Origin: Prevotella sp. | GTDB taxonomy: Bacteria; Bacteroidota; Bacteroidia; Bacteroidales; Bacteroidaceae | DNA: 46,691 nucleotides | Assembly: GCA_017389705.1 (NCBI GenBank) | Contig: JAFPEE010000009.1 | Location: 1-46,691 of the forward strand | Direction of reading: 5' to 3' | In this document: positions 40,633-46,480 of the stretch, in pieces | Layout: the number at the start of each line of letters is the position of its first letter | How positions within the stretch are numbered: position 1 is the stretch's first letter | The notes under the pieces: generated by a model | What the model was told of the DNA's origin: nothing | Database searches by the model: none | Seen by the model: the letters and a program-made list of their open reading frames with translations, nothing else | Program-made: the position numbers and the translations under genes

Positions 40633-41004
40633 GAAAATCTCAAAATCTACCTTCACCCTTCACTCATAAAACGGTAACTTATTGTACCACAAAGTGTTAA
40701 ATGACTTTAAAACCATCATCAAACCTTCACTTATCCGTCACTTTTCCGTCACTTATCCTTCACTTTTTACTTTAGTGGCACCTGAAGGGTGCTTACATTA
40801 CGACTAACTACCCTTTACTCGGCATGTAACTGGTGCTTTGTCGGCACCAAAATCATGCTTTCTCGGCATGAAAGTGAAGGGTGAGTGAAGGAAAAGTGAA
40901 GGAAAAGTGAAGGTTTAGTGAATGTTGAGAGATGGCTTAAACCATTGTAGTACAATCATTTAACTACAAAAAAGTGAAGGGTGAAGGTTGATTTTGAGAT
41001 TTTC
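40633..41004. mobile_element. 372-bp element with 32-bp terminal inverted repeats (MITE-like)
   Basis: The ends 40633-40664 and 40973-41004 are inverted copies matching at 31 of 32 positions (GAAAATCTCAAAATC...). Inside, left 11-bp repeats (CACTTATCCGT and variants, 40728-40771) mirror right ones (GTGAAGGAAAA, 40874-40916). The centre has small hairpins GGTGC/GCACC and CATGC/GCATG, each followed by a TCGGCA-type stretch. No transposase frame is inside. No target duplication is obvious. A MITE or a large palindromic repeat are both possible. Confidence 0.65.
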
Positions 41005-41168: not shown

Positions 41169-41196
41169 TGGCGGAGTGTTTCTGAACACTCCGCCA
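41169..41196. other. Perfect 12-bp hairpin
   Basis: TGGCGGAGTGTT and AACACTCCGCCA around a TCTG loop. No T-tract follows on either strand, so it is not a typical terminator. It stands about 100 bp upstream of the mod promoter. Confidence 0.75.
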
Positions 41197-41294
41197 TAGT
41201 CAATCCCTCTCCACAAGGCCGTTTGAGCCCTGTTTGGTGAAGTGTTGAGGTGTTTGTGTGAAAAATGCCAAATAGAAATTTTTCGTGGAAACAT

Positions 41295-41325
41295 TTTGCT
41301 GTTTCAGAAATAATCTTTATCTTTG
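41295..41325 (+). promoter_or_regulatory. Promoter of the type III R-M operon
   Basis: TTTG (41295-41298), a 19-bp spacer, TATCTTTG (41318-41325): full consensus. The predicted start of transcription, around 41330, is immediately before the first hairpin of the leader and about 300 nt before the mod ATG. Confidence 0.75.
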
Positions 41326-41626
41326 CATGTAAGCTTTGCTATCGTGGCTTGAGCGCAAGCTGAGCGTAGTTATTTTCGAGGGTTAAACATTAGCGTTGGC
41401 TATTATTCAAAGTGTTCCGAAACTTGCAGGTAGAAAGAACAACTAAAGATAATAATGGTGACGCCTACTGGTATAGTGGGCGTTTTCCTGTTTCTTTGGT
41501 TAGGTTTCCTGCAAGTACCTGGAGCACTGAACGGGGATTCGTCCACGTTTTGTGTCCAATAGGTGCTTGCAGGATATTTTGTTTGGTGGCTCGACGCAAT
41601 AATAAACAGATATTATTGCTAATCGT
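41326..41626 (+). ncRNA. Structured 5' leader of the type III modification gene (candidate regulatory RNA)
   Basis: Helices in order: P1 41339-41369 (GCTTG/CAAGC with outer CTA.CG/CG.TAG); P2 41462-41482 (8 bp with one G-U, loop GGTAT); P3 41508-41573, CCTGCAAGTACCT with AGGTGCTTGCAGG (13 pairs, one G-U) continued inward by GGA-CAC/GTG-TCC and a TTCG-capped hairpin; P4 41596-41619, a 9-bp A/T-rich hairpin ending 7 nt before the ATG. ACTTGCAGG at 41422-41430 can pair with 41508-41516 instead, excluding P3. This competition is typical of attenuators and riboswitches. The ligand or signal is unknown. I cannot assign it to a named RNA family. Confidence 0.65.
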
Positions 41627-43585
41627 ATGGCTAAATCATTGATTGAGGAACTGCCTCGCATCGTGAGCGAAGGCAGGCGTGAGGCTGCTCAGATATTGGA
41701 GCGGCTGAGTAGTGGTACGCAGATTGGTCTGCAGACCAATGAACTGGTGCTGCCCAGTAAGGATGTCAGCGGACTATTTAAAGGCAGTTCGCCTCAGATA
41801 CCTAATGCCTTTAATATGGCAGGGGGAAGTGGGGAGTGGATGAACCGCCTTATCTATGGTGACAACCTCTTGGCTATGCAAGCGCTTCTTGCAGGAGATG
41901 CTCAAACAGGGCTTCCTTCGCTTCGAGGGAAGGTTGACCTTATATATATTGACCCGCCGTTTGACTCGAAAGCAGATTATCGTACCAAGATTTCTTTGCC
42001 AGGAACAGATATTCAGCAGAAGCCGACAGTTCTTGAGCAATTTGCCTATGCTGATACATGGGAACAGGGAACTGTTTCATATCTCAGAATGATATATCCA
42101 CGTCTGTGTCTTATGAAAGAACTCCTTTCAGAAAGTGGAAGCATCTATGTTCATATAGATTGGCATATTTGTGCATATGTTAAGGTGTTAATGGATGATG
42201 TTTTTGGAAAGGATAATTTCATTAATGAATTAATCTGGTGTTATCAAGAACGCGAGATGTCAACAAGAAATTATAATAGGAAACATGATAACATCCTCTT
42301 TTATTGCAAAAATAAACAGGTAGATAATTACACTTTTAATCCCTATACAATAACCGAACCATATTCTGAAATAACGCTTAAAAAGTTCAAATATATAGAT
42401 GAAAATGGGAAAAGGTATAGGCTTAGAGGCAAAAATGGAACAAATGATCCTAAAGAAGAAAATGAAAATACTTATCGTCAATACTTAGATGAAAACACAG
42501 GAACTCTACCTAGAGATTGGTTTAATCTTCCTATTTTAAACCAAGCAGCAAATGAGCGTTTAGATTATCCCACTCAAAAACCAGAGAAACTTCTCGAACG
42601 CATCATCAAAGCCTCATCCAACGAAGGCGACCTCGTTTGCGACTTCTTCGGAGGCAGTGGTACAACAGCAGCTGTTGCTGAGCGTTTGGGCAGACGATGG
42701 ATAACAACAGACATTGGCAAACCAGCCTCATTGGTGATGCGCAAGCGTTTTATAGACCAAGAGGTAAAGCCATTCCTATATCAGAGCATCGGCGACTACC
42801 AAAAGGAAGCGTTCCGCAACAATAAACGCTATAAGCATGTGGGCGATTTGAGCCAAGTGGTGTTGGGGCTGTATGGTGCTTTGCCCTTTACGCCAGAGCA
42901 GACGAACGATAGGAACTTCGGATATATAAAAGGTACGCGAACGCTTGTGATGGTGGATTCGCCAAACCGCCTGACTACAGCTGCAACGATTCGTCGTGCA
43001 GTAGAAGCTAAAGCGAGCCTGCTGGGTGGCGATTGGGATAAAGTAGTGGTGCTTGGCTGGAACTTCGCCTTCGACATTTCGCAAGCCATTCAGAAGTATC
43101 AGAACTCTAATGTCGAGGTATTGGTGATTCCTCCCGACTTGCTGGACAAGTTGGCGAAGAAGGGCTATAAGAAGCTGATAGATGACAGAAGTGTGCGTTT
43201 CTCGTCGCTGCAATACTTGGTTGCAAAGCCATTAGTAGTAAAACAGAATGGTGAACAGGATGAGATAGATGTGGAGCTGGAAAACTACGTGCTGCTATCG
43301 CCCGACAATATTCCTCTGGACGACAAGGACAAGGAGAAACTGCAACAGGTTTTGGAGCGTGACCCATTGTCGCTGATAGAATACTGGAGTATTGATCCAG
43401 ACTACGACGGTGTTACTTTCCGCTCTACTTGGCAGGACTATCGTGAGAATGTGGAGAACGATAACGACCCGCTGCATTGCGTCTATAAGACTCGTCTGAG
43501 AGTGGAACATAACCCACATCGAAAGGTATGCATCAAGGCTGTGGATGTGTTTGGATTTGAAAGTCAGGTAATAGAGGAGGTATAA
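41627..43585 (+). CDS. mod: Type III R-M modification subunit (adenine-specific DNA methyltransferase)
   Basis: 652 residues. A beta-class layout: catalytic DPPF (109-112) in '[14 protein letters not shown]' precedes the target-recognition part (about 200-310), then '[13 protein letters not shown]' and the SAM motif '[13 protein letters not shown]' (339-351). The C-terminal 280 residues are a helical/strand extension common in Mod proteins of this branch. It methylates adenine in one strand of an asymmetric site and gives the complex its specificity. The bases coding for about 42130-42590 are much richer in A/T than the flanks, pointing to an exchanged recognition domain. Res starts 3 bp after its stop. 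Confidence 0.92.
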
Positions 43586-43588
43586 GGT

Positions 43589-46480
43589 ATGGCTACAAAT
43601 AGTGCTAATGTTTCGCTGGAACTGGCCAAAAGGCTAAGCGAAGAGGTGAATGCCGCATGGGAGAGTGGCGAACTGATGGAACGGGTGACACCCACTACGC
43701 AAGAGTTGCTGAAGTTTTGGTTCTCAGAGGAATATTGCTCGCTGAGGAATCGCAACTTCCATGCTGGTCAGCGTCAAGCCATTATGAACATCATCTATCT
43801 GCATGAGGTGATGGGTGTGAAGAATGTAATGGACTACTATCAGCAGTTGACACCAGACTTGATGCTTGTGGTAGACTTAGGCACGCTATTTCAACAGAAA
43901 TACCAGATGCCCAAATATGCCGTAAAGATGGCAACGGGAACGGGTAAGACATGGGTGATGCATGCCTTGCTGATTTGGCAGATGCTGAATGCCCGTCATG
44001 AAGAAATCAAGACAGGGCGTTTCACGAAGAACTTTCTAATTGTTGCACCTGGCCTGATAGTATACGATCGTTTGCTGGATGCTTTCTGTGGACGGATGCA
44101 GCGTGACAGGGAAGAACGCGATATTGAGACCAACGACTTCTATCTGAATCAGGAGGTGTTTATTCCTGTGCACTACAGGCAGGAAGTATTTTCCTTCATT
44201 CAAAATAATGTAGTAACAAAGGATGAAGGTATTGGTAGAAAGACTACTGGCGATGGACTAATAGCATTGACCAACTGGCATCTGTTTGAAAATCAGATAG
44301 AGGAAGAAGTGGTTGAGGGCGGTACTATTGAGGTTCCTGACATCATCAACGAGCTATTGCCCATTCGTCCTGGTAAGGCTGCTGGTAACGACTTGGGAAT
44401 GCTGGATCGCCGTTACCTACGAGGCTCTGAACTGGAATACTTAGCAGGGCTCGAAGACATCATGGTGATTAATGATGAGGCTCACCATATCCATGAGTTG
44501 AAACGCAATGGTGAAATAGAGGAAGTGGAATGGCAAAAGGGCCTGAACGCAATAGCAGAAAAGAAAGGCGAGCGTTTCTTTCAAGTAGACTTCTCGGCGA
44601 CTCCCTACGATCAACGAGGCTCTGGCAAGAAAGCGCAGAAGTGTTACTTTCCGCATATCGTGGTAGATTTTGATTTGGCTACAGCTATGCGGAAAGGATT
44701 GGTAAAGACGCTCTTACTAGATAGACGACAGGAATTGACTGAGTTGAAAGACTTGGATTATAAGGCTGTTCGTGATGAAAGGGGTAAAGTGTGTGACCTC
44801 AGCGATGGACAAAGACTGATGCTTCGGGCAGGTCTTGCCAAACTCAGAAAACTGGAGAAGGAGTTTACAGAGGTTGATGAGAAGAAGAATCCAAAGATGC
44901 TTGTTATCTGTGAAGATACTTCAGTAGCTCCATTTGTTAATCAGTTAATGCTGGAAGAGCACTTGGCACAGGAAGATGTGGTAACCATCGATAGTAATGC
45001 AAAGGGCGAGGTATCAGAAGAGGAATGGAAGGAAACCAAGAAAAAACTCTTCGATATCGATAAATATCAAAAGCCCAAGGTAATCATTTCCGTGTTGATG
45101 CTACGTGAAGGCTTTGATGTAAACAATATCTGTGTCATAGTCCCTTTACGTTCATCGGAGGCACCTATTCTTCTGGAACAGATTATAGGTCGTGGCCTTC
45201 GTCTGATGTGGCGAGAACCAGAGTATCAGAGTATTAAGGAATACGATCGTAAACGTGTATTACAACTGCATAGCCAGCCAAGTACCTATATTGATATGCT
45301 GAGTATCATAGAGCATCCTGCTTTTATTCAGTTCTATGAAGAACTTTTCGCACAAGGATTGGCAGTCGAAGATACTGGCGAGGCTGGTTCTGGAGGCTCA
45401 ACGGGAGATTTAATAAAAGTGGGATTGCGCGAGGACTATGAGCAGTTTGACTTTGAATGGCCGATGATAGTCAGAGAGGCTGAAGAAGAATTGGAAGATG
45501 TGGATATTGACATTCGCACATTACAGCCTTTTACTGCATTCCCTTTGGAGAAACTACGTCAGTTCTTGGCACAGGATGGCGAGACATTCATCTCGCAAGA
45601 AGCTATCTCGAAGACTCAGTTTGGCAGATATAAGGTAACGGCTAATTTGTTTACTGCTACCAGTTACAACGAATATCTTCAAAAGCTACTAAGAACCATT
45701 ACACTTAGATTTGACAAAGGAGGTCCCAAAAATGGTTATCCCAATTTGCAAATCAACGAGGCACTTACTATTGCTGTGGTTGACAGGTATATCCGCACAC
45801 GTTTATTTGGTCAGCCATTCAATCCTTTTAATGGTAGCGACTGGAAAATATTGCTGTCAAAAGATGCGATTGTAACTAAGCATATCATGGAAGAAATGGC
45901 TCGTGCTATTTTCAATATACAGAACAATATCATGACAACTGATGCACAAGTAGTGCATACTAAATTCTCGTCGGTAACGGAAATCAAGATGCGTGAGTCA
46001 TATTCAATGGAGGTGAATAAGGCAATATATAAAAGACTTGGCTATCCCACTCATGGAGGAGGGTTTGAGAAATCATTTATGGACTTCCTCAACAAGGATG
46101 GAGAGGTGGAACGATTCTTAAAGATTAGTGAGAATCAGCACTCCTTTGCTGTAATCTATTACATGCGTAGGGATGGTTTAATGGCTACCTATCATCCAGA
46201 CTTCATCGTTGCAACTGATAAGAAAGTATATTTAATTGAAACAAAAGGTAACGATAAACTCTTTGACAAGAATGTTCGTCAAAAACAGACCGCTGCTGTA
46301 GAGTGGACTCGTAAGATAAATGAACTGAAGCCAGAGGAACGAATGAATCGCAAATGGGAATATGTGCTTATCAGCGAAGACAATTTCTATGGGCTTTCAT
46401 CTAATGGCGCAACTATTACTGACATCTGTGACAGATGTAAAGTCTCATTGTCTGCTGCCATGGGAGAATTGTTTGTATAA
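43589..46480 (+). CDS. res: Type III R-M restriction subunit (helicase-nuclease)
   Basis: 963 residues. Superfamily 2 helicase motifs: Walker A 'MATGTGKT' (114-121), DEAH (296-299), 'FSATPYD' (335-341), motif VI 'QIIGRGLR' (531-538). A C-terminal PD-(D/E)XK nuclease is visible as 'YHPDFIVATDKKVYLIETKG' (Asp871, Glu884, Lys886). All parts needed for ATP-driven cleavage of unmodified DNA are intact. It is co-transcribed with mod. The composition is A/T-richer than the chromosomal genes on the left, consistent with transfer. Confidence 0.93.
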   Translation: MATNSANVSLELAKRLSEEVNAAWESGELMERVTPTTQELLKFWFSEEYCSLRNRNFHAGQRQAIMNIIYLHEVMGVKNVMDYYQQLTPDLMLVVDLGTLFQQKYQMPKYAVKMATGTGKTWVMHALLIWQMLNARHEEIKTGRFTKNFLIVAPGLIVYDRLLDAFCGRMQRDREERDIETNDFYLNQEVFIPVHYRQEVFSFIQNNVVTKDEGIGRKTTGDGLIALTNWHLFENQIEEEVVEGGTIEVPDIINELLPIRPGKAAGNDLGMLDRRYLRGSELEYLAGLEDIMVINDEAHHIHELKRNGEIEEVEWQKGLNAIAEKKGERFFQVDFSATPYDQRGSGKKAQKCYFPHIVVDFDLATAMRKGLVKTLLLDRRQELTELKDLDYKAVRDERGKVCDLSDGQRLMLRAGLAKLRKLEKEFTEVDEKKNPKMLVICEDTSVAPFVNQLMLEEHLAQEDVVTIDSNAKGEVSEEEWKETKKKLFDIDKYQKPKVIISVLMLREGFDVNNICVIVPLRSSEAPILLEQIIGRGLRLMWREPEYQSIKEYDRKRVLQLHSQPSTYIDMLSIIEHPAFIQFYEELFAQGLAVEDTGEAGSGGSTGDLIKVGLREDYEQFDFEWPMIVREAEEELEDVDIDIRTLQPFTAFPLEKLRQFLAQDGETFISQEAISKTQFGRYKVTANLFTATSYNEYLQKLLRTITLRFDKGGPKNGYPNLQINEALTIAVVDRYIRTRLFGQPFNPFNGSDWKILLSKDAIVTKHIMEEMARAIFNIQNNIMTTDAQVVHTKFSSVTEIKMRESYSMEVNKAIYKRLGYPTHGGGFEKSFMDFLNKDGEVERFLKISENQHSFAVIYYMRRDGLMATYHPDFIVATDKKVYLIETKGNDKLFDKNVRQKQTAAVEWTRKINELKPEERMNRKWEYVLISEDNFYGLSSNGATITDICDRCKVSLSAAMGELFV

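Follow-up and report, generated by a model that had tools for sequence, protein, structure and literature searches.

The window analysed here, a stretch of 46,691 nucleotides from a Prevotella sp. contig, carries between a promoter and a pair of restriction-modification genes a structured leader that we read, with a probability of roughly 55%, as a cis-acting transcription attenuator in the 5′ untranslated region, belonging to an undescribed RNA family found across the Bacteroidales. On its predicted folding the leader probably decides whether transcription continues into the gene behind it. Comparison of related sequences supports a helical domain designated P1b-P1-P2-P3, a helix (P0) between the 5′ strand and the P2-P3 junction, a late strand followed by a U-tract, and a strand (strand 3) that forms the helix P5 mainly in front of defence genes.

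An earlier note on this DNA had described a promoter just upstream of position 41326, three strands of which the middle one is complementary to both of the others, and a 9-bp hairpin ending 7 nt before the mod start codon. All of these were found again at the positions listed below. The element is larger than that note had drawn it, as P0, P1b, P2 and the late strand had been missed. In the list, cells are paired positions in the alignments described further on.

41294-41325, plus strand: promoter, read in the sequence, with TTTTG (41294-41298) and the -7 box TATCTTTG (41318-41325)
41392-41408, plus strand: 5′ strand of P0, AGCGTTGGCTATTATTC, the most conserved stretch, pairing with the junction J
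41411-41418, plus strand: 5′ strand of P1b, partner 41521-41528; 8 pairs in the window fold, 96.1% of cells paired
41422-41430, plus strand: 5′ strand of P1 (strand 1), ACTTGCAGG; 95.9% of cells paired, double-sided changes in 9 of 9 pairs
41441-41448, plus strand: 5′ strand of P2, partner 41494-41501; 94.1% of cells paired, double-sided changes in 6 of 6 pairs
41449-41464, plus strand: junction J, the 3′ strand of P0, overlapping the first P3 bases; its own pairing with the 5′ strand exceeds swapped pairing
41460-41484, plus strand: P3 hairpin, 41460-41469 with 41475-41484; 94.7% of cells paired, terminator-like in a scan
41494-41501, plus strand: 3′ strand of P2, from window fold and covariation
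41508-41520, plus strand: strand 2, the 3′ strand of P1 (CCTGCAAGT, 41508-41516) followed by ACCT; partner of strand 1 (P1) or strand 3 (P5)
41521-41528, plus strand: 3′ strand of P1b, from window fold and covariation
41540-41551, plus strand: late strand CGTCCACG and U-tract, with only four consecutive U in the window
41561-41573, plus strand: strand 3, AGGTGCTTGCAGG, the 3′ strand of P5, from the prefix fold and from own versus swapped pairing at defence loci
41576-41583, plus strand: U-rich stretch TTTTGTTT, 3′ of strand 3, a possible second termination point
41596-41619, plus strand: 9-bp hairpin before the start codon (41596-41604 with 41611-41619), read in the sequence, part of the leader fold
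41627-43585, plus strand: mod, DNA methylase of 652 aa starting with ATG at 41627; N6_N4_Mtase (PF01555), E 4.6e-44
43589-46480, plus strand: res, ResIII/helicase protein of 963 aa; ResIII (PF04851), E 7.7e-14, and Helicase_C (PF00271), E 6.3e-6

The sequence TATCTTTG is what we take to be a Bacteroidetes-type -7 box, and a TTTGC box at this position is conserved in 7/7 aligned leaders; a generic sigma-70 scan of the window gave 1 promoter against 0.9 in shuffles, that is, no excess. Judged by domain content, N6_N4_Mtase followed by ResIII and Helicase_C is what is expected of a type III mod-res pair. Upstream of the promoter, 41169-41196 forms a perfect 12-bp hairpin (TGGCGGAGTGTT/AACACTCCGCCA) with a loop of 4 nt, and several GTGAAGG-like repeats lie in the intergenic stretch between mutS and mod (40876-40990). 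The RNA from 41326 to 41640 folds at -111 kcal/mol, compared with a shuffled mean of -81.4 (sd 4.9, z -6.1; 0 of 100 shuffles equal). When successive prefixes of this RNA are folded, P1 and P1b are present at 41569 and have been replaced by the 13-bp downstream pairing by 41577, in agreement with the exclusive alternative pairing that had been proposed from the letters.

Relatives of the leader were sought at increasing distance. BLAST in 199 genomes returned six leaders besides the window's own, all within the genus, nearly all weaker matches among relatives being at the promoter; against plasmids and phages there was no match. With 398 sampled genomes of the genus, the total came to 31 distinct leaders. 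The same Mod family as in the window stands behind the leader in 22 of 30 oriented genus loci, and in L073 the leader sequence continues into the same mod start. A second, different type III-like Mod follows in L053, L060 and L076, a C5 cytosine methylase in L072, a TupA-like protein in L074 and, in L022, a short ORF (83 aa) that matches no Pfam family; L051 and L068 have no usable gene behind the leader. Even within the genus, then, no single gene goes with the leader. Some of these loci are altered in other ways. In L022/L081 (genome G097; leader L022:1533-1712, minus strand) the leader is near mutS as in the window, with the 83-aa ORF replacing mod-res. About 40-90 nt are inserted between the U-tract and strand 3 in L051, L054, L059, L068 and L070, and in L068 strand 3 itself appears altered. 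L075 (G418:C44) has a shortened strand 3 followed directly by mod coding sequence, the usual start region being absent, as after a deletion, and at L076:615-2230 a Mod-like gene is split across two overlapping frames.

A covariance model (R1) was built from 25 genus leaders; the alignment A1 comprises 25 of the 31, with four that carry long linker insertions and two that have no recognised strand 3 omitted. At E 0.001, and with the window genome counted each time, R1 matched 120/349 genomes and 18/30 genera of the family sample, 42/344 genomes and 33/194 genera of the order sample, and 4/296 genomes and 4/140 genera of the phylum sample. A suggestion in the earlier note, that similar leaders may precede accessory genes in other Bacteroidales, is borne out by the matches in the family and order samples, and the lack of homologues outside this locus, which would have spoken against the element, was not what the search returned. 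Copy number is six and seven in two genomes of a single genus (G197, G1000) and one in the window genome. A separate pattern scan of named genomes with the first ~35 nt of the leader found at least 118 stretches, and among the matches listed 75 of 80 pattern loci overlapped a full R1 match. Those listed without such an overlap are L238 (labelled Nitrospirales), L271, L278, L281 and L285; in L281 and L285 an R1 match is present but at the edge of the available sequence. Carriers among the matches listed include Alistipes, Tannerella, Porphyromonas cangingivalis, Odoribacter, Draconibacterium and Candidatus Symbiothrix and, outside the Bacteroidales, Chryseobacterium. Several leaders each, on different contigs, occur in Candidatus Symbiothrix and Dysgonamonadaceae bins (L208, L242, L264, L277, L284, L285; L209, L223, L247). 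Among viral contigs (IMG/VR), 3 of 4 pattern hits carry full R1 matches (L325, L326, L327), and the leader may therefore travel on phages or prophages.

The helices of the domain are maintained by compensatory change. One alignment (A3) comprises 100 of 149 leader loci (7 of the 31 from the genus, plus 49 of 58 and 44 of 60), omitting near-duplicates and the majority of Mod leaders from the genus; a second (A5), of 88 matches with 87 distinct, was assembled from 75 pattern loci, 4 additional matches within such loci, 6 from the five phylum loci and 3 on viral contigs. Mutual information in A3 singles out P1b, P1 and P2, the listed pairs being 77-100% paired against 39-84% expected. In these two alignments, both fitted to R1 and hence leaning towards the model, 93.6% of 3892 paired cells pair in A3 (63.7% in 500 shuffles) and 92.3% in A5 (61.0%), double-sided changes number 1240 against 390 and 1099 against 350, and structures slid along the alignment reach at most 40.5% and 43.6% paired. 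The double-sided changes far exceed what this fitting bias would suggest, and compensatory change at paired positions had been named beforehand as a test of the structure. The sequence itself is also conserved in places: columns 1-6 and 8-10 of the P0 5′ strand are 94-100% conserved in the 100 leaders, and the AA/ACC internal loop that separates P1b from P1 hardly varies (A29 100%, A30 99%, A129 91%, C130 100%, C131 98%). As far as comparison goes, the leader has a conserved aptamer-like domain sharing a strand with a putative expression platform, as a riboswitch does. It likewise has one mark of an attenuator, namely predicted exclusive helices kept by covariation (P1/P2, P0 and, at defence loci, P5), the exclusion of P0 by P1/P2 resting on geometry and nested folding. 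An invertible or recombination site in the DNA was considered and ranked low, as the arms vary freely between loci while their pairing persists. At gathering score Rfam 15 has 0 families in the window, and a relaxed search gave the window leader only matches of E 2 or worse; a relaxed search of 20 loci returned two tRNAs outside the leaders and a sub-threshold SurA match in the leader of L109 (26.5 against 100 bits, E 0.004).

Across the P2-P3 junction and into the first bases of P3, the RNA is the reverse complement of the P0 5′ strand. In A3, pairing of this strand with its own junction averages -15.8 kcal/mol, compared with -12.3 for junctions of other leaders (0 of 2000 permutations). Own pairing is also better than the average for the 12 closest relatives (<85% identity) in 76/100 leaders (p 2e-10), although own-versus-relatives tests carry some relatedness, since of four negative controls three had no effect and the fourth, J against the 3′ arm of P3, had a small one (-5.5 versus -5.0, p 5e-4). 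In A5, where the 5′ strands are mostly fixed by the search pattern, the values are -12.0 and -10.6 (0/2000; 1667/2000 for the control pairing of 5′ strand with linker). Minimum-energy folds of prefixes contain P0 (at least 4 pairs) in 96/100 leaders once P3 is complete, in 3/100 after the 3′ strand of P2 and in 0/100 after that of P1b, at which point P1 and P1b are present in 100/100. The state with P1/P2 is lower than that with P0 by a mean of 17.6 kcal/mol, and is the lower one in 100/100 leaders. Because the strands of P0 flank a stack of ~25 bp, we infer that P0 and P1/P2 are mutually exclusive; P0 could instead, through a sharp bend, be a pseudoknot alongside P1/P2 and not a competitor.

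The late strand usually reads YCCACG, and in 184/188 leaders it can form an uninterrupted run of 5 or more pairs with the P3 3′ arm; in several leaders whose arm is altered, the late strand matches the change (L124, L126, L148, L166, L197). U frequency after the late strand is 0.74-0.85 at positions +2 to +6, compared with 0.32 in the leader. The complementarity of the late strand to P3 is inseparable from that of P3 itself, and own pairing exceeds that of relatives weakly (59/100, p 6e-3). The P3-late helix is found in 0/100 minimum-energy prefix folds at all four stages, and a terminator scan of the window flagged P3 alone, missing the late strand and P5. For these reasons, that is the prefix folds, the weak relatives test and the scan, we infer termination at the late strand as the best reading and do not count it as a result. 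A clearly weaker first U-tract in leaders with P5 was considered but not confirmed (longest T-run on average 4.8 and 4.2 versus 5.2 and 5.4).

The sequence comparisons suggest two subtypes of the leader, one with P5, mainly before defence genes, and one largely lacking it, before secreted proteins. Defence labels were assigned by profile matches, similarity and reading frames (L089, L096) and then spread by phmmer, the 24 leaders without an ORF being kept out of the gene tests; among the labels rechecked, those of L104, L096, L102, L179, L182, L105, L142, L122, L087 and also L098 were supported. In A3, P5 reaches z <= -3 at 19/36 defence loci and 6/59 other ORF loci (p 8e-6). The comparison becomes 18/35 versus 6/59 (p 1.5e-5) without L089, which has no called ORF, and 13/30 versus 5/57 (p 3e-4) without the genus seeds. 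In A5 it is 5/15 versus 1/54 (p 0.0014), and other thresholds give p 1e-6 to 9e-4 in A3 and 0.005 to 0.045 in A5. When strands were swapped between loci, with kinship ignored throughout, own pairing was the stronger at 51 defence loci not selected by P5 (-17.9 versus -11.2), at 39 other loci (-10.7 versus -8.8) and at 74 secreted or membrane loci (-9.5 versus -8.4), each with 0/2000, so that the gap is large at defence loci and small in both other groups. Some genes outside defence have P5 in front of them as well, for example DUF6056 (L084) and an acyltransferase (L090). In 24 defence loci that have P5, the 18 nt 3′ of strand 3 show a U fraction of 0.45, a modest signal, which weakens the case for P5 as a strong second terminator.

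The genes behind the leaders are diverse. Across 188 leaders, in a tally that has no background rate, 51 were labelled as defence, 74 precede a protein with a hydrophobic N-terminus and 39 others, and 24 have no callable ORF. The earlier note had placed the leader in front of a type III restriction-modification operon; a structured leader with exclusive pairings does precede mod-res, but with 51/188 leaders labelled defence it is not specific to that type. A set of 96 downstream proteins (A4) was formed from 91 of 102 non-redundant ORFs, 11 short or doubtful ones being omitted, and five genus loci. Its top Pfam families are N6_N4_Mtase (10), LRR_5 (5) and Acyl_transf_3 (4), followed at three each by EcoRI_methylase, N6_Mtase, MmeI_N, ResIII and HSDR_N_2, and the PADLOC and NCBIfam tallies agree with this picture. 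Along with many secreted proteins, the restriction genes span type I (L131, L176), type II (L111, L112, L113, L124), type IIG (L108, L144, L191), type III methylases (L091, L094, L141) and a type IV-like helicase (L154). HKD/Snf2 proteins (L092, L198) and a WYL protein (L097) are also found. Weaker matches are those to a type III restriction enzyme (L103), to part of the BPTD_3080 restriction enzyme, below the curated cut-off (L104), and to part of a ZorA-like protein, likewise below its cut-off (L163). Leaders also stand before DUF6056, acyltransferase and TupA-like genes (L084, L090, L095, L151, L074), which, as a guess, are possibly cell-surface glycan genes related to phage receptors.

Read as an attenuator, the leader would work as a race between the early P0 and the domain of P2, P1 and P1b, with the 3′ arm of P3 and strand 2 as the shared pieces. 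P0 would form first on the nascent RNA, invade P3 and free its 3′ arm for the late strand, and the resulting P3-late helix together with the U-tract would stop transcription. If P2, P1 and P1b displaced P0 in time, P3 would stay whole, the late strand would be left without a partner and the polymerase would read through. In the defence subtype P5 might act as a second stop or trap, because it needs strand 2 to be free of P1 in order to form. A ligand, a protein or the speed of the polymerase are possible triggers that would tip the balance. Controlled expression, delayed Res/Mod synthesis and the sensing of phage or DNA state, as put forward in the earlier note, are conjectural.

Were the trigger a metabolite, the leader would be an orphan riboswitch, which amounts to the attenuator plus a ligand: P1b-P1-P2-P3, perhaps with P0 as a pseudoknot, would bind it, and the late strand and P5 would form the expression platform, comparable to ON switches that share the 3′ strand of P1 with a terminator. 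The free variation of the helices around a nearly invariant AA/ACC loop fits such a domain, as do the strands shared between it and the alternative pairings, yet the downstream genes have no metabolic pathway in common, and we consider this possible but rather doubtful. That the 5′ strand and the internal loop are so strongly conserved in sequence would also suit a bound protein, a NusG paralogue or other RNA-binding protein controlling elongation or translation, for which the structure would be a landing site. Leader control by a NusG paralogue is known in Bacteroides (UpxY), but no protein gene is constantly linked to the leader in the loci read, and this account seems unlikely.

Two further readings, a free small RNA and a leader peptide, rank low. 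A promoter, a structured body and a U-tract would also be expected of a free small RNA merely positioned before genes. Such an RNA is very improbable here, given that a same-strand ORF starts a median of 48 nt past the model end at 115/118 loci (a figure without a control for chance ORFs) and that defence loci conserve P5, which lies past the U-tract. A leader peptide on which ribosomes stall is scarcely credible: an ATG ORF of 5-60 codons is present in 143/188 leaders, but the starts are scattered, the fullest 5-nt bin holding 30, and no short ORF occupies a common place. The attenuator is the reading that we retain. A broader proposal, put forward tentatively and at less than even odds, is that across the Bacteroidales one undescribed switch family links the expression of several types of restriction-modification system to one shared cellular signal, along with that of further anti-phage genes, genes for glycan modification and those for surface or secreted proteins. 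It would come in two subtypes, one with P5 in front of defence genes and one mostly lacking P5 in front of secreted proteins. If the leader controls these genes, restraint of restriction in the Bacteroidales becomes directly testable, as does a possible signal shared by phage defence and the cell surface. The covariance model and the alignment of ~190 leaders can serve at once in tests of ligands, proteins and termination.

Among known systems, terminator/antiterminator attenuators and ON-type transcriptional riboswitches such as pbuE have exclusive helices that share a strand. The leader resembles them in this, in its U-tract and in its place between promoter and start codon, and differs in having no Rfam match, in the early helix between 5′ strand and P2-P3 junction and in the functionally unrelated genes downstream. 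Bacteroides capsule-locus leaders under UpxY antitermination belong to the same order and likewise control accessory operons from a leader; we know of no structure common to them and the leader described here. The FopS/GibS small RNAs of Bacteroides, as presented in the available part of their description, are also a multicopy RNA family of Bacteroidota with promoters of their own (PMC11697453). FopS is given there as ~65-70 nt, made up of a 5′ part that is single-stranded and a terminator, and works in trans, whereas the present leader, of ~180-300 nt, is placed in cis ahead of genes. Weinberg et al. 2010 (PMC2864571) likewise used comparative genomics to find structured RNAs in the Bacteroidetes. 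Those of their motifs with Rfam entries do not match the leader, and Bacteroides-2, which in what is accessible of that source has no Rfam number, is reported there from one sequenced organism only. The suggestion that the system is undescribed agrees with the Rfam 15 result and with the open-access literature searched, where the accessible portions, including those of PMC11697453, PMC2864571 and PMC7366714, hold no description of the element or of one leader-RNA family before so many restriction types and unrelated surface genes. A leader-RNA switch is known as a kind, and the present one appears to be new as a family, in the logic of P0 and in the range of genes that it precedes.
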